Made by a program: the position numbers and the translations under genes. A stretch of DNA of 45,670 nt from positions 1-45,670 of IMG/VR virus record IMGVR_UViG_3300027782_000137; one strand, given 5' to 3'. This document shows positions 6,324 to 12,710 of this stretch, one piece after another. Within the stretch, counting starts at the first letter, position 1; the number at the start of each line of letters is the position of its first letter. The notes beneath the pieces are model-generated. The model did no database searches and had not been told where the DNA came from. It saw nothing but the letters and a program-made list of their open reading frames with translations. Source of the stretch: a virus.

Positions 6324-7103
6324 ATGACAAAGATTAAAATTTTCAGCGATATTCACTTGGAGTGTTTTGCTTCAGGTCAACCTCTTCCTGATTTAGGGCG
6401 AGGAGACACACTTATCCTAGCAGGAGATATTCTTTCCGCTAGGTATTTCAAAACTGATGGATACCTTCATAGTGTTTATGATACCTTTCTGGAAAATTGT
6501 TCCAAGAACTTCAATCAAGTTCTATATGTATTAGGAAATCACGAATTTTTCGGGTTCAATTTTGAAGGAACTTTTAAAACTATTCGTGAAAATCTTCCTG
6601 ATAACTTTCACCTCCTAGATAACGACACCGTTAAGATTGGGGATTGGAATTTTCTTGGATTCACTTTTTGGACTAATTTCCGAAATGCAAATCCAATTGA
6701 AATGTTAGATGCCGAGCAATATATGAATGATTATAAAGTCATTCGTATTGCTTCCAATTATAGAAAGTTGAGAGCACAGGATACTCTTAACTTACACCTT
6801 AAAAGTAGAGATTATCTTCTCAAACAACTTGAAACTCTCAAGGAGAATGTATTCGTAATTAGTCATCACGCTCCAAGTTATCGCTCCATTGCAGATGAAT
6901 TTAAAACTGCTTCTTGTAATGGTGCATACTGTAGTGATTACGATGGTTTGATTATGAGCAATCCACAAATTAAATACTGGGTTCACGGTCATACCCATAC
7001 GCCTTTTGATTATAAAATTGGAGAGTGTCGTGTGATTTGTAATCCTGTTGGCTATCCCTCGCAAGACACTGGTTATAAGCCAGACTTATTCATTCGGGTA
7101 TAA
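6324..7103 (+). CDS. Calcineurin-like metallophosphoesterase
   Basis: 259 residues with the full two-metal motif set: SDIHLE (8-13; Asp9 and His11), AGDI (33-36), LGNHE (70-74), SHHAP (180-184) and HGHTHTP (221-227). The fold hydrolyses phosphomono- or diesters, and substrates range from nucleotides to RNA ends and phosphoproteins. Phage members include RNA 2',3'-cyclic phosphatases and protein phosphatases; nothing visible here fixes the substrate. It lies in the run that begins at 5905. A late-promoter-like box (7099-7106) overlaps its stop codon. Confidence 0.9.
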   Translation: MTKIKIFSDIHLECFASGQPLPDLGRGDTLILAGDILSARYFKTDGYLHSVYDTFLENCSKNFNQVLYVLGNHEFFGFNFEGTFKTIRENLPDNFHLLDNDTVKIGDWNFLGFTFWTNFRNANPIEMLDAEQYMNDYKVIRIASNYRKLRAQDTLNLHLKSRDYLLKQLETLKENVFVISHHAPSYRSIADEFKTASCNGAYCSDYDGLIMSNPQIKYWVHGHTHTPFDYKIGECRVICNPVGYPSQDTGYKPDLFIRV

Positions 7104-7206
7104 ATATAAATGTCTCTAGGAACGGCAATTCTCTACAGACAAGATTTGGTGCTCTTTTGAGCACCTTTTCTACTATAAATAGTAATGCCGTTCATAGAGA
7201 ATAACA
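7099..7206 (+). promoter_or_regulatory. 108-nt late-promoter/RBS-sequestering cassette (copy 1)
   Basis: In order: TATAAATA (7099-7106); 5' arm TCTCTAGGAACGGCA (7113-7127); a terminator hairpin GGTGCTC-TTTT-GAGCACC-TTTTC (7148-7170); a second TATAAATA (7174-7181); 3' arm TGCCGTTCATAGAGA (7186-7200); ATG 6 nt later. The arms pair at 14 of 15 positions and cover the purine-rich ribosome site. Transcripts that read through would fold and hide the site; transcripts from the inner late promoter lack the 5' arm. The layout matches the copy at 11749-11856. The mechanism is inferred from T4 I-TevI and lysozyme. Confidence 0.75.
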
Positions 7207-8112
7207 ATGACTTTACAAAGTCCAAGAATTTACACATATAAAATTACCTTTGAAGAAGTTCCACATTACTATTATGGAGTTCATAAAGAGAAGAAATATA
7301 ATGAAGAGTATTATGGTTCTCCTAAAACACATAAATGGTGTTGGGAGCTTTATACGCCAAAGAAGCAGATATTAGAATTATTTGAATACACAGATGAAGG
7401 TTGGATTGAAGCCCAAGAAATTGAAAAAAGAATAATTAAAGTTTTTTATAATTCAGATATAAATTGTCTAAATCAAAGTTGTGGAGGCAAAATTTCATTA
7501 TCACTGCTTAAGTTGAGTGGTAAAAAAACAGGAAATTGGTGTAAAGAAAATAAAATTGGCATCTTTGCTTTGACTCCAGAAGAACGAAGTGAACATAGTA
7601 GAAAAGTAGGCAATCAAAACTATGAAAATCGTGTAGGTATATTTGGACGAACACCAGAAGAAATGAAAGAGAATGGTAGAAAAAGTGGATTAAAAAATAA
7701 AGAAAATAAAACTGGAGTGTGTGGTCAATCAATAGAAAAAATGAGAGAAAATGGTAGAAAAGCTGGTATAATTGCAAAAGAAAATAAAACTGGCATCTTT
7801 GCTTTGACTCCAGAGCAAATGAAAGAAAATAGTAGAAAATCAGGTATTCAAAACTATAAAAACTGTGTGGGTATATTTGGACGAACACCAGAAGAAATGA
7901 AGGAGAATGGTAGAAAAAGTGGATTACAACATAAAGAAAAAGGGACAGGTATCTTCGCTTTAACTTCAAATGAAAAAAGCGAACTTGGTAGAAAAAGCTG
8001 TAGTCAAAAATGGAAATGTTTAGAGACTGGATTTATTACAAATGCAGGAAATCTTTCCAAATATCAAAAAGCAAGAGGTATAGACCCTTCAAAAAGAATA
8101 AGATTATCCTAA
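7207..8112 (+). CDS. GIY-YIG homing endonuclease with NUMOD3-like repeats
   Basis: 301 residues. Residues 8-110 form a diverged GIY-YIG domain: IYTYKITFEEVPHYYYGVH, EEYYGSP, then a catalytic EAQEIEKRIIK and NCLNQSCGG. Six repeats of about 25 residues follow ('GIFALTPEERSEHSRKVG' type, NUMOD3-like DNA-binding helices); two are almost identical at DNA level. The C-terminal KWKCLETGFIT...GNLSKYQ segment is shared with the HNH protein at 11857. This is a free-standing homing endonuclease, likely expressed late under the hairpin just upstream. It ends directly against a promoter stem-loop cassette. Confidence 0.85.
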   Translation: MTLQSPRIYTYKITFEEVPHYYYGVHKEKKYNEEYYGSPKTHKWCWELYTPKKQILELFEYTDEGWIEAQEIEKRIIKVFYNSDINCLNQSCGGKISLSLLKLSGKKTGNWCKENKIGIFALTPEERSEHSRKVGNQNYENRVGIFGRTPEEMKENGRKSGLKNKENKTGVCGQSIEKMRENGRKAGIIAKENKTGIFALTPEQMKENSRKSGIQNYKNCVGIFGRTPEEMKENGRKSGLQHKEKGTGIFALTSNEKSELGRKSCSQKWKCLETGFITNAGNLSKYQKARGIDPSKRIRLS

Positions 8113-8115
8113 AGG

Positions 8116-8170
8116 ACACTTTTTCAAGCGGCACTCCATTGCTCCTAGGAGGCGGTGAGGGTGCTATACT
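8116..8170 (+). promoter_or_regulatory. Stem-loop plus extended -10 promoter cassette
   Basis: The cassette stem 'ggacactttttcaagcggcac' is followed by TGCTATACT (-10 at 8165-8170). A leader of about 65 nt precedes the gene at 8243. Confidence 0.55.
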
Positions 8171-8242
8171 TCATATATGAAGCGGGGGCAACTCCTTCGC
8201 CTCTACCACCTACACTACACTTTTTGAGAGGTAATTTTTATT

Positions 8243-8689
8243 ATGGCTAAATCTCCGAATATTCGTTTCCCCCGCAGTGAAGCTGGGTTCTACAGCGTCA
8301 CTCAAGATGGTGAATTGGTTGGTTACATTATGCGCGAAGTGACTGACGACAAAGAAACCAACTGGTATATCTTTGATAATGCAACTCCTGACCTGGATGT
8401 TGCGATGCTTCATCCTGAAGATGCGATTGATGCACCTGATGGTCTTTTCCGTGAAGCCAAGGAGAACGCTAAAGCATACTTCCTCAATCGTCCTGTGATG
8501 GTTCAAGTTGAAGCCCCTGTAGCTCCTCTTGAAGAAGCACAATGGAGTGATGGAGATGAAGATGATGCCGAAGATGACGACGTGATTGAGGATAATAACA
8601 TCTTCGTTTCTGATGATGGTGAAGTTGAACTCTTTGAAGATGAGCTGGAGTTTGATACTGTGGACGCCGAAGAATTCGTTCTGGCTTGA
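8243..8689 (+). CDS. FPRxxAGxY-family protein with acidic tail
   Basis: 148 residues. N-terminal domain: RFPRSEAGFYSVTQDGELVGYIMREV...WYIFDNATPDL. From about residue 95 on it is extremely acidic (GDEDDAEDDD). The product at 14682 shares the N-terminal pattern (FPRxxAGxYxVxxxxxxVGYI...W), so the two are paralogues. Each has its own promoter cassette and terminator, hinting at high-level single-gene expression. DNA mimicry or binding to basic proteins is possible but unproven. Confidence 0.8.
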   Translation: MAKSPNIRFPRSEAGFYSVTQDGELVGYIMREVTDDKETNWYIFDNATPDLDVAMLHPEDAIDAPDGLFREAKENAKAYFLNRPVMVQVEAPVAPLEEAQWSDGDEDDAEDDDVIEDNNIFVSDDGEVELFEDELEFDTVDAEEFVLA

Positions 8690-8703
8690 TGTTTCATACG
8701 TCG

Positions 8704-8737
8704 GGGGAGTGTGTTATTCACTCCCCTCCTTTTTTTC
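8704..8737 (+). terminator. Rho-independent terminator
   Basis: GGGGAGTG (8704-8711), loop TGTTATT, CACTCCCC (8719-8726), then a T-rich run to 8737. Confidence 0.85.
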
Positions 8738-8755
8738 TTTTGTGAGCTTTACATA

Positions 8756-8890
8756 ATGAATTTAACAACTCTGGATATGTTTGAAGACCAAGCAGATGAA
8801 GAAGCTGCACTAGAATTTACTTCTTGGGTGAAAGATAAAGCAGAAGAAATTGGAGTGTCTGAAGATTACTACTTGCTGGAGTTCATTTAA
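8756..8890 (+). CDS. Very small acidic protein
   Basis: 44 residues starting MNLTTLDMFEDQADEE; helical and acidic. It ends 1 nt before the next ATG, so translational coupling is likely. No family recognised. Confidence 0.6.
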   Translation: MNLTTLDMFEDQADEEAALEFTSWVKDKAEEIGVSEDYYLLEFI

Positions 8891-8891
8891 A

Positions 8892-9197
8892 ATGAATTAT
8901 TTTCAACAATACGAAACTGAACGCAAGCATCTTAAAGTTGGTAAGATGTGGATTTGTAATGATCCAAGAGCTATATTACAAAGTATAGAAACTTTAGGCG
9001 AAATCATTGAAATTATAGAGATTATTGATATTGGGGATCAAAGAGCTTATGGGGAGCAAAGAGCTTATCGGTATTTCGTTTTATCCGGTAGATATAAAGG
9101 TAGAAAATATCAAACATCAAAGCCTAGTTTTATCAAGTGCTACAAACCTTATACTGGCGCAAAACCTTCTGAGGTTAAGGAACTATCTAATGTTTGA
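8892..9197 (+). CDS. NYFxxYE-family small protein (copy 6)
   Basis: 101 residues from ATG 8892: MNYFQQYETERKHLKVGKMW. It contains short internal repeats (IIEIIEIID and DQRAYGEQRAY) that suggest slippage growth. An in-frame ATG further upstream lies within the 8756 gene and is not needed. It overlaps the next gene by 8 bp. Confidence 0.75.
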   Translation: MNYFQQYETERKHLKVGKMWICNDPRAILQSIETLGEIIEIIEIIDIGDQRAYGEQRAYRYFVLSGRYKGRKYQTSKPSFIKCYKPYTGAKPSEVKELSNV

Positions 9198-9549
9198 TTG
9201 GAAAGTTGATATTATCACAGAGAGTGGTCAAGTTAGAACTATTAAAGTTTATGACTTTACTTTAAAATCAGATGCAGAAGCAGCAGCACTCTCTCAAAGT
9301 GGTGGAGGGCAAGTTTATTATTCCGCTCCTTTTGTGGAGAGTATTCAAAGCACCCCCCAGAATAGTAATTCAGAACCCTTTCGTGGATTTGATGTGAGTG
9401 ATATAGAGTTTGATTACTCTACTAAACAGGGGCTTATTGCTGGATACATAGCTGCTACAATTCTCCCCACATTCATTTTGTGGTGCATCAATCCAATACC
9501 TTCTATACTCTTTAACATTGCATTTGCCCGATGGTGGTTCACTGATTAA
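9190..9549 (+). CDS. Membrane protein with cytoplasmic N-terminal domain
   Basis: 119 residues from ATG 9190. Residues 1-80 are soluble (MFDWKVDIITESGQVRTIKV..., with a Gly/Ser/Gln-rich patch). Two hydrophobic segments follow near the C-terminus (LIAGYIAATILPTFILWCI and SILFNIAFARWWF). It starts inside the end of the previous gene and ends 1 nt before the helicase, so the three are one unit. Confidence 0.65.
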   Translation: MFDWKVDIITESGQVRTIKVYDFTLKSDAEAAALSQSGGGQVYYSAPFVESIQSTPQNSNSEPFRGFDVSDIEFDYSTKQGLIAGYIAATILPTFILWCINPIPSILFNIAFARWWFTD

Positions 9550-9550
9550 A

Positions 9551-10750
9551 ATGAAAAATCTTCGTCCGTATCAAGTTAAGGCTCTAGCATCTTTGAATAC
9601 TCATAACAAAGGAATAATTATAATTCCAACAGGTGGTGGTAAAACTCTTATCTTTATGGAAGACATAAAGAGAAGAATTTCACAGTCAGAAACTCCACTC
9701 ACTATTGTAATTGTTGCTCCGAAAATTCTCCTTTCGTCTCAACTTTCAAATGAGTTTGAAGGCTATCTCAAAGGCTTTTCTAATGTATTTCAATCTCATA
9801 TTCATTCGGGTGAAGATGGTATCACGGACCCTTCTGAAATCATCACCGCTCATAATCTCATTCAAGAGCTAAACTATCATCACCTGATGTTTACTACATA
9901 TAAGTCTCTTCCTCGTATTCACGAAGCGGGTATTGATATTGATGTCGCAATCTTTGATGAGGCGCATCACTCGGTATTTGAGTCTAACTTCGTGGGAGTT
10001 GCTCAAACATCGGAGACTGCAAAGAATTCATTCTTCTTCACTGCAACTCCTAAACATACCGACAGTAAGACTACAATGGCGAACTCGTCGGTTTATGGTG
10101 GAACTATTCTCTCCATTCCTCCAAAGGAACTTGTAAATTCAGCTTACATCTTGCCTCCTCAAGTGGAGACTTATGAGGCGTCTGAAACTGATGATGTTAA
10201 TATCATTAACTTCATTGATACTATTGAATATATAAATCCAAAAATTCTTGTCGCAGTTCCATCTACGCAAAAGATGATGGATATGTTTACAGAAACCGAA
10301 CTCCTAAATCATCTACAAGAGCGCGGATTTAATATCTTTCATATTACAAGTAAGTATGGTTGTGTGGTAAACAATGTTAAAAAGACTAGAGTTGAATTCT
10401 TTGAAGAGTTGAGTAGAGTAGGTAATGATGATAATGAAAAGCTCATCATCTTTCATTTTGCAATTTTGAGTGAAGGAATTAGTATTGAGGGGCTCTCCCA
10501 CGCACTTCTCCTTCGTAATCTTTCCATAGTTGATTACGTTCAGACTATTGGACGTATTCTTCGTATTCATCGTGAGGATAGTAAGAAACTTCAAGAAGGA
10601 ACAATCAAACCTGGAGAATATCATCTCTACAAGAAACCCTGCGGAGTGATTGCTTTTCCTACTAATGATAGTCGTGGTAGTATTATTCAACGCAGACTTC
10701 AATCTATTGTGAATACTCTTTTCGTTGAAGGTAAAACTTTGGTTGCATAG
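9551..10750 (+). CDS. Superfamily 2 DNA/RNA helicase (UvsW-like type)
   Basis: 399 residues from ATG 9551. Motifs: Q-like RPYQ (5-8), Walker A PTGGGKT (26-32), motif Ia VIVAPKILL, DEAH (136-139), motif III TATP (164-167), motif V SEGISIEGL and motif VI QTIGRILR (331-338). It is a compact two-RecA-domain enzyme, shorter than T4 UvsW (about 500 residues), without extra domains. In T4-type phages such enzymes remodel recombination intermediates or origin R-loops. The UvsW role is inferred; SF2 membership is certain. Confidence 0.9.
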   Translation: MKNLRPYQVKALASLNTHNKGIIIIPTGGGKTLIFMEDIKRRISQSETPLTIVIVAPKILLSSQLSNEFEGYLKGFSNVFQSHIHSGEDGITDPSEIITAHNLIQELNYHHLMFTTYKSLPRIHEAGIDIDVAIFDEAHHSVFESNFVGVAQTSETAKNSFFFTATPKHTDSKTTMANSSVYGGTILSIPPKELVNSAYILPPQVETYEASETDDVNIINFIDTIEYINPKILVAVPSTQKMMDMFTETELLNHLQERGFNIFHITSKYGCVVNNVKKTRVEFFEELSRVGNDDNEKLIIFHFAILSEGISIEGLSHALLLRNLSIVDYVQTIGRILRIHREDSKKLQEGTIKPGEYHLYKKPCGVIAFPTNDSRGSIIQRRLQSIVNTLFVEGKTLVA

Positions 10751-10777
10751 ATAGTTTATGGTTTATATTAAATTGAA

Positions 10778-10939
10778 ATGTTTGTAAAGAAGTTTCCAAA
10801 TTCTGGAGATACCATTCACATAAGAATTCCAGCCGCATATAAAGATGTGATTGAGAAACTTATGATTATCTTTGATAAAAGGTTTCCTCCAGAAAAAGGT
10901 GTAAATCTAATTCACAAATTTATCAACAACTTTGAGTGA
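10778..10939 (+). CDS. Small basic protein
   Basis: 53 residues, MFVKKFPNSGDTIHIRIP followed by a helix-rich remainder (AYKDVIEKLMIIFDKRF). The 'IHIRIPxxYKDVIEKLM' pattern recalls short ribbon-helix-helix DNA-binding proteins (a beta strand of alternating residues, then a helix), so a small regulator is possible. Weakly supported. Confidence 0.6.
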   Translation: MFVKKFPNSGDTIHIRIPAAYKDVIEKLMIIFDKRFPPEKGVNLIHKFINNFE

Positions 10940-10949
10940 GAGAAGGGAG

Positions 10950-11006
10950 AGGGCACTTTTTAAAGCGTCCCTAACATCCAGCATCTGTCCCCAGATGTGC
11001 TACAAT
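10950..11006 (+). promoter_or_regulatory. Stem-loop plus extended -10 promoter cassette
   Basis: 'ggcactttttaaagcgtccc', then AGCATCTG/CAGATGTGCT as a second inverted repeat whose 3' arm runs into TGCTACAAT (-10 at 11001-11006). Confidence 0.55.
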
Positions 11007-11029
11007 GAGTACAACTCAAGAGAAGTCCA

Positions 11030-11167
11030 ATGCAAGGTTCTAATCACTATAAAATTCACGAGAAGAGCGATAAATCCTCTCGTAATGAAAAAGGTAGACA
11101 TAAGCCTGTTGCAAAGCGTCAGGCTAAAGCTCGCCTTAAAGCACTGAAAAAGAAACTTGGAGCTTAA
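11030..11167 (+). CDS. Very small, highly basic protein
   Basis: 45 residues with a Lys/Arg-rich C-terminus (PVAKRQAKARLKALKKKLGA). It could bind nucleic acid. The GTG start of the exonuclease lies 1 nt after its stop, so translation is coupled. No family recognised. Confidence 0.6.
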   Translation: MQGSNHYKIHEKSDKSSRNEKGRHKPVAKRQAKARLKALKKKLGA

Positions 11168-11168
11168 A

Positions 11169-11732
11169 GTGAAGTATTTTTCTCTTGACCTTGAACTGAA
11201 TAATAAAAAAGATGGAACAGTTCCTAAAGTAATACAAGTTGGTATAGCACTAGGGGAAACTTCAGAGAATATAAAAACCTATTCTTGGTATCTTGACCCC
11301 GAAGAAAAAATCACTGACTTTATCTCAAACCTAACAGGCATCACAGACGAAATCATTAAAGAGAAATCTGTTCCTCTTTCACAAGTTGCAGAAGAACTGG
11401 GTAATCTTCTGACCGAAGAAAAGCCTTTTTGCAATCCCATAACCTGGGGTGGAGGGGATGCTAATGAACTCAAAAATGAGTTCAGGCAAAATGGAATAAA
11501 CTTTCCATTCTTCGGTCGTCGCATAGTTGATGTAAAGACCATATTTGTTTATACGCAAATGGTAAATGGTAAGTCTCCCGCAGGTTCCTTGAAAAAATCA
11601 ATGCGTTCTTATGGTCTTGAGTTTATTGGAGAAAATCATCGGGCGGATGTAGATGCCTATAATACTCTTCGGTTCTTTTTCTATTTCCTGGAACGCCAAA
11701 GAGTTTTTGAAGAATATATATGCAACTTATGA
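11169..11732 (+). CDS. DEDDh 3'-5' exonuclease (DnaQ/RNase T fold)
   Basis: 187 residues with GTG start 11169, giving a start at the usual place (MKYFSLDLEL); a TTG 12 nt upstream is less likely. Exo I FSLDLE (Asp-x-Glu), Exo II WGGGDANELKNEF, Exo III HRADVDAYNT with the DEDDh His. A degraded relative of its C-terminus lies about 1 kb downstream beyond the HNH gene. Likely roles are DNA proofreading or RNA/DNA trimming during takeover. Substrate unknown. Confidence 0.88.
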   Translation: MKYFSLDLELNNKKDGTVPKVIQVGIALGETSENIKTYSWYLDPEEKITDFISNLTGITDEIIKEKSVPLSQVAEELGNLLTEEKPFCNPITWGGGDANELKNEFRQNGINFPFFGRRIVDVKTIFVYTQMVNGKSPAGSLKKSMRSYGLEFIGENHRADVDAYNTLRFFFYFLERQRVFEEYICNL

Positions 11733-11748
11733 AACAAATGAAATAGTA

Positions 11749-11856
11749 TATAAATAAGAATGTCTGTTGATACTGCAATCTCTACAGTCAAAGATTAGGT
11801 GCTCTTTTGGGTACCTTTTCTATTATAAATAGTAATGCAGTATCAATAGAATAGAA
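11749..11856 (+). promoter_or_regulatory. 108-nt late-promoter/RBS-sequestering cassette (copy 2)
   Basis: Same order and length as copy 1: TATAAATA (11749-11756), 5' arm TCTGTTGATACTGCA (11763-11777), hairpin GGTGCTC-TTTT-GGGTACC (two G-U pairs) with TTTTC, TATAAATA (11824-11831), 3' arm TGCAGTATCAATAGA (11836-11850), ATG 6 nt on. The arms differ in sequence from copy 1 but still pair (14 Watson-Crick plus one G-U), so pairing has been conserved by compensatory change. Confidence 0.8.
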
Positions 11857-12528
11857 ATGAATTATCTAAAGCATTATTGTAATCTTATTAGGAAAGCAGA
11901 GAAAAGGACTCCACCTGAAGGTTATACCGAAAAGCATCACGTATTCCCTAAAAGTATTTTTGGTAAAAATTCTAGGATTGTTAAATTAACAGCAAAGGAG
12001 CATTATGTGGCTCACGCATTATTGGAAAAGATTTGCATTCAAAGATATGGTGAAAATCATTGGAAATCTAAAAAAATGAACCACGCTCACATTCTTATGA
12101 GAGGTGTAGGTAATAGGAAAGAAATATATTATAATTCTTATATCTATGAGGGTGCAAAAATAAGAAATTCAAAAATATTAACTGGATTTTTCGCTTTAAG
12201 TGAAGAAGAGCAAAGAAAAATAAGATCAAAAAATGGGGAAATATCTGGAAATAAGAATATGGAAGAAAGGAGAGGTATATTTTCTCAAACTGATGAAGAA
12301 AGAATAAAATCAGCTTCTCTTGGGGGGAAAGCAGTAAAAGAACTTAAGATTGGAATTTTTGGTATGAGTAAAGAAGAGTGGAGTGAGGTGGGTAAAAAAG
12401 GAGCAGCCGTAACCAATTCACAAAAATGGAAATGTTTAGAAACTGGATTTATAACTACACCAGGAAATTTATCTCAATACCAAAGAGCAAGAGGTATAGA
12501 TACATCTAAAAGAGAAAGGCTATACTAG
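11857..12528 (+). CDS. HNH homing endonuclease with NUMOD3-like repeats
   Basis: 223 residues. N-terminal HNH domain: HYCNLIRKAEKRTPPEGYTEKHHVFPKSIFG, then LTAKEHYVAHALL; this resembles T4-type Mob/F-Tfl HNH enzymes. Three 'GIF.(S/T)EEE' repeats follow. The last 36 residues (KWKCLETGFIT...GNLSQYQRARGID) match the end of the GIY-YIG protein at 7207, so two different nuclease domains have been joined to one DNA-binding tail. The gene lies between an exonuclease and the remnant of another exonuclease. Confidence 0.85.
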   Translation: MNYLKHYCNLIRKAEKRTPPEGYTEKHHVFPKSIFGKNSRIVKLTAKEHYVAHALLEKICIQRYGENHWKSKKMNHAHILMRGVGNRKEIYYNSYIYEGAKIRNSKILTGFFALSEEEQRKIRSKNGEISGNKNMEERRGIFSQTDEERIKSASLGGKAVKELKIGIFGMSKEEWSEVGKKGAAVTNSQKWKCLETGFITTPGNLSQYQRARGIDTSKRERLY

Positions 12529-12535
12529 AGCCACT

Positions 12536-12585
12536 TTATGAACCGGCACAGTTATACTCCAATTTCAAGTTGGCTGTGCTATAAT
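12536..12585 (+). promoter_or_regulatory. Stem-loop plus extended -10 promoter cassette
   Basis: 'gccactttatgaaccggcac' stem; GCACAG...CTGTGC inverted repeat ending at TGCTATAAT (-10 at 12580-12585), a near-perfect extended -10. It is placed directly upstream of the exonuclease remnant. Confidence 0.65.
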
Positions 12586-12710
12586 ACTTACATAAACACA
12601 GAGGATTGATAGATGATGCTTACAATACTCTTCGCTTCTACTTTGCTCTAGTTAATAGACAAAGAAAGCTAGAAGATGCGATGAATCTTCTAAAAACCGT
12701 TGCTTTTTAA
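12585..12710 (+). pseudogene. 3' remnant of a second DEDDh exonuclease
   Basis: The open frame has no start codon at its 5' end and reads HRGLIDDAYNTLRFYFAL..., matching Exo III and the last helix of the exonuclease at 11169 (HRADVDAYNTLRFFFYFL). Everything upstream of Exo III is missing and replaced by a promoter cassette. It is therefore the tail of a deleted gene. Only a short internal ATG fragment could be translated. Confidence 0.7.

Follow-up and report, generated by a model that had tools for sequence, protein, structure and literature searches.

We analysed a window of viral DNA of 45,670 nucleotides (nt), the whole of IMG/VR virus record IMGVR_UViG_3300027782_000137 (positions 1-45,670), which has T4-like cyanophage features, with a helicase, an RNase T-like exonuclease and a metallophosphoesterase flanking two units that each consist of a homing endonuclease (HE) gene and a ~108-nt cassette ahead of it. 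We consider it probable, from the patterns of sequence conservation described below, that the cassette encodes a small RNA (sRNA) that is made in tandem with and from the same strand as the HE mRNA, is mobile together with its HE, pairs with the HE leader and blocks translation, with a lock in cis as a second layer. Comparison of the cassette with its relatives shows that the arms, a 5' stem and the terminator covary at the level of RNA, that both promoter boxes are conserved and that the whole unit is mobile; we infer that the sRNA is made, represses the HE and acts in trans.

The cassettes lie at 7099-7206 and 11749-11856, with their elements in the order and at the spacing given in a preliminary description of this DNA. 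The first half consists of TATAAATA, 5 nt, a G that is the predicted transcription start (+1), the 5' arm, a short spacer, a G+C-rich hairpin and a T tract; the second half consists of TATAAATA, 5 nt, a G that is again the predicted +1, the remaining 3' arm, 6 nt and the ATG. The four boxes, starting at 7099, 7174, 11749 and 11824, are four of just five occurrences of TATAAATA on both strands of the 45.7 kb. The features are as follows, with the basis for each in brackets.

7099..7106, + strand: copy 1 upstream late-promoter box TATAAATA, predicted sRNA promoter (sequence; TAAATA here in relatives)
7112..7171, + strand: copy 1 predicted antisense sRNA, ~60 nt, with 5' stem, loop containing the antisense arm, and terminator (predicted +1 is the sixth nt past the box)
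7113..7127, + strand: copy 1 5' arm, the antisense sequence (complementary to 7186-7200)
7148..7165, + strand: copy 1 intrinsic terminator hairpin, then TTTTCTACTA (terminator scan)
7174..7181, + strand: copy 1 inner late-promoter box TATAAATA, predicted HE mRNA promoter with +1 at 7187 (sequence)
7186..7200, + strand: copy 1 3' arm, the first 14 nt of the predicted HE mRNA leader and the base preceding +1 (complementarity)
7207..8112, + strand: GIY-YIG-type homing endonuclease gene, 301 amino acids (aa) (PHROG 314 homing endonuclease, E = 3.2e-9)
11749..11756, + strand: copy 2 upstream late-promoter box TATAAATA (sequence; box position in relatives)
11762..11821, + strand: copy 2 predicted antisense sRNA (fold -19.7 kcal/mol, z = -4.2)
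11763..11777, + strand: copy 2 5' arm, the antisense sequence (complementarity)
11797..11816, + strand: copy 2 intrinsic terminator hairpin with T tract (terminator scan)
11824..11831, + strand: copy 2 inner late-promoter box TATAAATA, predicted +1 at 11837 (sequence)
11836..11850, + strand: copy 2 3' arm, the start of the predicted HE mRNA leader (complementarity)
11857..12528, + strand: HNH homing endonuclease gene, 223 aa (PHROG 655 homing endonuclease, E = 6.7e-25)

The arms differ between the copies, yet each is complementary to its own partner, as had been described: in copy 1, TCTCTAGGAACGGCA and TGCCGTTCATAGAGA form 14 Watson-Crick pairs with one G-A mismatch, and in copy 2, TCTGTTGATACTGCA and TGCAGTATCAATAGA form 14 Watson-Crick pairs with one G-U. 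This G-U had been placed at the last pair and is in fact the fourth counted from the outer end. The inner hairpin changes, as noted earlier, from GGTGCTC/GAGCACC in copy 1 to GGTGCTC/GGGTACC in copy 2, with two G-U pairs. What had been missed is a small stem in both copies (GUCU/AGAC, 7112-7115 with 7137-7140, in copy 1; CUGU/ACAG, 11764-11767 with 11784-11787, in copy 2) whose loop contains the 5' arm; the fold predicted for the copy 1 sRNA has an energy of -22.9 kcal/mol (z = -4.4). The copy 1 upstream box (7099..7106) overlaps the stop codon of the phosphoesterase gene upstream, and the HNH protein of copy 2 is a distant relative of Aeh1 MobE (34% identity). The curated covariance models of Rfam, in which we looked for a known riboswitch, ribozyme or intron, gave no match at either cassette. 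We also rejected an open reading frame (ORF) starting at ATGTCT past the first box, as other copies have ATA or CAC in place of this ATG and the frame is shifted by single-base indels.

More than 120 non-redundant relatives of the cassette were found in IMG/VR and in the isolate Synechococcus phage S-SRM01, all of them before HE-like genes. S-SRM01 has one variant and six standard cassettes, among them those at 48435, 51249, 55961 and 62408, phage B23 has at least two, and a phage contig may carry up to about eight. Scans of IMG/VR with shorter core DNA patterns returned 25, 108 and 63 stretches; the exact long core pattern had no match in IMG/VR, near-identity megablast of the 5.6-kb region had none among phages, and the main-type core pattern had no exact match in the genomes of 84,980 bacterial and archaeal species. 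At 172 loci we scored every NATAAATA site solely for complementarity of the bases that follow it to the bases 25-90 nt upstream. An arm score of at least 20 was reached at 160 of the 598 sites, compared with four when halves from different sites were combined; these 160 arm-defined sites were picked without reference to the upstream box. Terminator, 5'-stem and pairing counts refer to a non-redundant set of 122 copies. As the IMG/VR patterns were seeded on the region from the terminator to the inner box, the range of inner boxes and terminators is biased to the seeds; the seed did not include the upstream box, the 5' stem or most of the other cassettes on the same contigs. Shuffle controls need to be interpreted cautiously, as the sequences are related and such controls are not probabilities; the mismatched-halves and slid controls are more trustworthy.

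Across these copies the arms covary strongly, and at the level of RNA. The covariation claimed from the two window copies held up in an alignment of 60 sequences (covariation score 0.567, versus 0.192 when shuffled and at most 0.163 in slid controls; pair counter, MAFFT alignment). Positions +1 to +7 of the mRNA are paired with the sRNA in 121-122 of the 122 copies and positions +8 to +11 in 107-117, with up to six pair types per arm position; over +2 to +11, 96% of positions pair, compared with 59% in column shuffles. Pairing ends upstream of -1 (13/122 at -2) and fades past mRNA +14, near sRNA +1, so that the helix spans from one predicted start site to the other. The core of the 15-nt arms originally proposed is therefore paired as described, whereas their outer four pairs are not conserved throughout: only ~70% of copies have the outer bases paired with the mRNA, the pairs at mRNA +12 to +14 are kept in just 85-87 of 122 copies, and the same stretch is kept instead for the 5' stem.

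When the 11-nt arm core is scored without preference for wobble pairs, it has 23 G-U cells and six A-C cells, and 23 and one, respectively, when the three loop-proximal positions are left out. This excess of G-U over A-C points to RNA of this strand. It also bears on a DNA-level reading, in which the arms would be an inverted repeat bound by the endonuclease as an autorepressor operator, or the ends of a transposable element. The unit is indeed mobile, and I-TevI autorepresses at an operator over its own late promoter (PMC2988022). However, mostly one-strand G-U among the non-Watson-Crick cells of the arm core would be unexpected for a DNA operator, the 122 copies have 68 distinct leader starts, and the arms do not bound the mobile unit. 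We ruled out operator and transposon ends on the G-U excess and the unit boundaries, and regard the chance of either as close to nil.

We found TAAATA upstream of the 5' arm in 154 of the 160 arm-defined copies, nearly always 8-12 nt before the arm, compared with five of 379 other NATAAATA sites. The predicted starts follow the box-to-start spacing of T4 late promoters, and a T at +5 and a purine at +6 past the box are present in 147/153 upstream boxes and in 153/153 inner boxes. Upstream boxes read NATAAATA or NCTAAATA, and the same range is found ahead of S-SRM01 structural genes (tataaata, actaaata, tctaaata, gataaata); NATAAATA is the reported cyanomyovirus late promoter (PMC2984593). A different reason for keeping the box would be that it supplies stop codons to the gene whose 3' end receives the unit. 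In 48 of 116 cases, the box does contain or adjoin the stop codon of the upstream gene, which also counts against our interpretation of the box as an sRNA promoter; in the remaining cases, however, the box is kept although the stop is outside it, and the common +5/+6 start pattern and the downstream terminator would go unexplained. Stop codons alone do not account for the pattern, and we judge this reading highly improbable.

A terminator-like hairpin followed by a T tract lies between the 5' arm and the inner box in 121 of the 122 copies, compared with ~1% of shuffled regions; its sequence varies widely (51 different stem sequences), and both window terminators were detected independently by a terminator scan. 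Nothing except the antisense arm and its stem lies between the upstream box and the terminator, so all that the upstream box could yield is a short separate RNA or readthrough. The stretch from the one to the other is predicted to be a complete gene, with its own promoter and its own terminator, for an RNA of ~51-66 nt, the range of lengths predicted across the copies. In 117 of 122 copies, the minimum free energy fold of this RNA starts with a 5'-terminal stem that encloses the antisense sequence in its loop; the loop is thus predicted to be complementary to the 5' end of the target mRNA. The pairs of the stem are kept in 121/122 copies at sRNA +2 and +3, with lower values in permuted controls; the mean 5'-stem score is 9.1, compared with 5.8 with permuted 3' windows (maximum of 300 permutations, 6.7). 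Its variants include GUCUG/CAGAC or CGGAC, AUCUG/CAGAU, ACCUG/CAGGU, GCCUU/AAGGU, GCUCU/AGAGU, GCUUA/UAAGC and others. The stem is hence a second helix with covariation of its own, and it competes with pairing of the outermost bases of the 15-nt arms. It was counted by a separate script; the MAFFT alignment puts its 3' strand out of register across subfamilies.

These elements suggest a mobile unit of the order late promoter 1, short antisense RNA, intrinsic terminator, late promoter 2 and HE gene, of which the cassette is the 5' half. Promoter 1 would start the ~51-66-nt RNA with its 5'-terminal stem, antisense loop and terminator hairpin, and the HE mRNA made from promoter 2 would begin with the first base of the 3' arm and have a ~20-nt leader that is predicted to be weakly structured alone. 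The sRNA would pair with mRNA +1 to about +14, ending ~6 nt before the AUG, and would in this way keep the 30S subunit off; as a separate transcript it could act in trans. Its specificity would be set by the loop of its own copy: predicted duplexes in the window have energies of -21.6 and -22.4 kcal/mol for cognate and -6.6 and -7.7 for cross pairs, and those in S-SRM01 range from -18 to -24 for cognate and from -2 to -14 for cross pairs.

An alternative, built on the reading in the preliminary description, is regulation in cis only, by the logic of I-TevI, segB and mobE. Early or middle RNA that reads through would then occlude the ribosome site by pairing its two arms, whereas late transcripts from the inner promoter, having no 5' arm, would be translated; the upstream box would be incidental or would merely feed readthrough. 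The hairpin that this calls for is thermodynamically plausible (readthrough RNA of the two window copies folds with z = -7.1 and -7.2 relative to shuffles), and I-TevI and mobE are established cases of the mechanism and segB a proposed one (PMC2988022; PMC3014915). It does not, however, account for the invariant upstream late promoter, the invariant terminator or the independently covarying, competing 5' stem; moreover, mobE and segB have no upstream box, and the arm-to-arm loop of mobE is too small for a terminator hairpin. As a complete explanation we find it unlikely. As a second layer beside the sRNA it probably does operate, according to these folds: readthrough RNA carries both arms and would thus lock itself in cis, also preventing early expression.

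Besides the stop codons noted above, several observations weigh against an sRNA acting in trans. The strongest point against the trans step is a conserved A in the sRNA that faces the T at mRNA -1, the base preceding +1, in 116 of the 122 copies. This A can be used by pairing in cis, as the alternative would have it, and goes unused in a trans duplex with an mRNA that starts at +1. The 5' stem is short (4-7 bp). Pairing specificity, too, is not strict everywhere. In a 136-kb IMG/VR contig (G006), the cassettes at 51855 and 67057 have an identical antisense stretch, so that their sRNAs should cross-regulate, and another two cassettes cross-pair at -19.5 kcal/mol. Non-cognate pairs at or below -12 kcal/mol make up 18% within contigs and 27% between contigs, which weakly suggests selection for orthogonality within genomes; with the shared antisense stretch of the G006 contig, we do not claim such selection.

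The sRNA might also exist and pair with the 5' end of the HE mRNA, yet stabilise or activate it, in the way that the ISPpu9 transposase is stimulated by its antisense RNA Asr9. In favour of this, the paired region includes the very 5' end of the mRNA, and a stimulating sRNA of a mobile-element gene is already known (PMC8450116). However, a weakly structured leader of ~20 nt leaves little to unfold. The duplex would furthermore end ~6 nt from the AUG, within the 30S footprint, the size of which is established; activation thus seems very unlikely to us, and we retain translational block by the antisense sRNA as the preferred interpretation.

The complete ORFs downstream of the cassettes fall into nine N-terminal groups, all of them HE-like (GIY-YIG, HNH and endonuclease VII types, many with NUMOD3 repeats), and encode proteins mostly of about 145-325 aa; the representative of the first group had no match of its own and was assigned via its window member, which has a PHROG match. 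The genes are free-standing HE genes of the GIY-YIG or HNH family (PHROG 314 and 655 in the window; group representatives elsewhere), and both types are found behind cassette relatives, which bears out the earlier suggestion of a portable cassette common to the two. The same cassette subtype occurs before different HE groups, indicating that cassette and gene are exchangeable. We rejected a type I toxin-antitoxin system, as the downstream proteins are endonucleases rather than small hydrophobic toxin peptides.

Presence and absence of the unit at the same site in related phages was found for loci of the relatives, as distinct from the window copies. At five loci, comparison of flanks among related contigs showed that the unit extends from the upstream box through the HE stop codon and that the empty site is without the upstream box; the box is thus part of the mobile unit. 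Another type of site has a late box but no unit. B23 has a unit inserted between the genes for PhoH and exonuclease A; in S-SRM01, where these genes are adjacent, the site is empty. Insertion is often at the extreme 3' end of the upstream gene, in which case the box contains or adjoins the stop codon of that gene.

At many loci (window 8115-8180 and 12530-12590; L133, L106, L098 and L030), units end directly before a repeat, ggacacttgaagaactggcac...gtgccctttttgnnttataatac, which by its sequence looks like a terminator and an early promoter; these repeats may be targets of the endonucleases. The window's GIY-YIG and HNH proteins (8000-8112 and 12415-12525) have in common a C-terminal stretch (QKWKCLETGFIT..GNLS.YQ.ARGID.SKR) that also matches a protein next to S-PM2 F-CphI and is possibly a DNA-binding module common to unrelated catalytic domains. 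Two cassette-driven HEs of S-SRM01 are annotated otherwise, 62515-63273 (gp114) as 'translation initiation factor 2' and 56059-56742 (gp091) as 'hypothetical protein'. A variant layout, found before a GIY-YIG gene at S-SRM01 NC_070963 77561-77670 (L028) and on the minus strand near 9731 of L173, has a single hairpin, GCAACTT...AAGTTGC within TGGG...CCCA, followed by a T tract; the hairpin loop is antisense to the leader from the next late box, in what is a simpler form of the cassette. S-SRM01 also has psbA annotated in two parts around an HE gene (207378-209040), likely an intron, with one TATAAATA just ahead of the HE and no cassette.

The cassette resembles T4-type leaders, known from T4 I-TevI, I-TevII, I-TevIII and segB and from Aeh1 mobE as a cis hairpin with a late promoter in its loop (PMC2988022), in that HE genes of T4-like phages are preceded by complementary arms with a late promoter between them, giving a late mRNA without the 5' arm (PMC2988022, PMC3014915). 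In the cassette, too, the late promoter lies between the arms, such that late mRNA would be without the 5' arm. Whereas there is a single late box in mobE and segB, and no terminator between the arms of mobE, the cassette adds a second late box before the 5' arm, a terminator and a 5' stem, and is common to at least nine HE groups. Its 5' arm is accordingly not left to distant promoters only, given the second late box (154/160) and the terminator (121/122).

IS10 RNA-OUT, which folds as a small stem-loop, blocks translation of the transposase by pairing its loop with the 5' end of the mRNA. It is the functionally nearest relative of the predicted sRNA, each being a small stem-loop RNA directed against the 5' end of the mRNA for a mobile element's nuclease. 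RNA-OUT is made from the strand opposite its target, whereas the cassette antisense is a tandem same-strand copy under a phage late promoter; being a separate copy, its two strands must coevolve. The cassette may thus work like RNA-OUT without being a member of that class. Antisense RNAs inhibit in IS10, IS30 and IS200 (PMC8450116). In ISPpu9, the element-borne sRNAs Asr9 and Ssr9 likewise control the element's own nuclease gene via its 5' leader, but Asr9 is a ~180-nt opposite-strand RNA that stimulates translation, and no covarying tandem pair is described there (PMC8450116).

Antisense RNAs of phages offer two further comparisons. CfrI of S-PM2 is a cyanophage antisense RNA near psbA that is linked to the HE gene F-CphI (PMC2984593). 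It differs in being ~225 nt long and opposite-strand, and F-CphI is without the cassette: its leader (S-PM2 NC_006820 136540-136690, L184) has a strong terminator and then directly one late box TATAAATA, with no upstream box, and is possibly an ancestral or reduced form. The sar RNA of phage P22 has a strand layout different from that of the cassette and targets the antirepressor gene (ant), not a mobile endonuclease. Its resemblance to the predicted sRNA lies in its small size (68/69 nt) and its antisense action: it base-pairs with a phage mRNA and inhibits protein synthesis from it (PMC12197685).

The cassette is a new variant of a known logic, that of IS10 RNA-OUT and of T4 I-TevI, segB and mobE. 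Our literature search found no paper describing such a cassette; subscription papers were outside its coverage, and the novelty is provisional. If the proposed mechanism is correct, the cassettes would be the first family of antisense RNAs, as far as our searches show, to move with homing endonucleases, in at least nine HE groups, and would connect the T4 late hairpin with transposase antisense RNA, both of them known means of keeping mobile nucleases in check. They also form a natural collection of paired antisense and leader sequences in which specificity can be read straight from sequence, and the model predicts clearly what RNA-seq late in infection by cyanophages such as S-SRM01 should show. 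More tentatively, and with considerable doubt, the cassettes may be self-matched mobile antisense locks, in which every unit has its own sRNA gene and cognate leader, and the pair coevolves into many specificities, swaps between unrelated HE families and silences HEs of the same specificity in trans. The HEs of a co-infecting phage would then also be silenced, which would amount to multicopy inhibition and to competition between homing elements.

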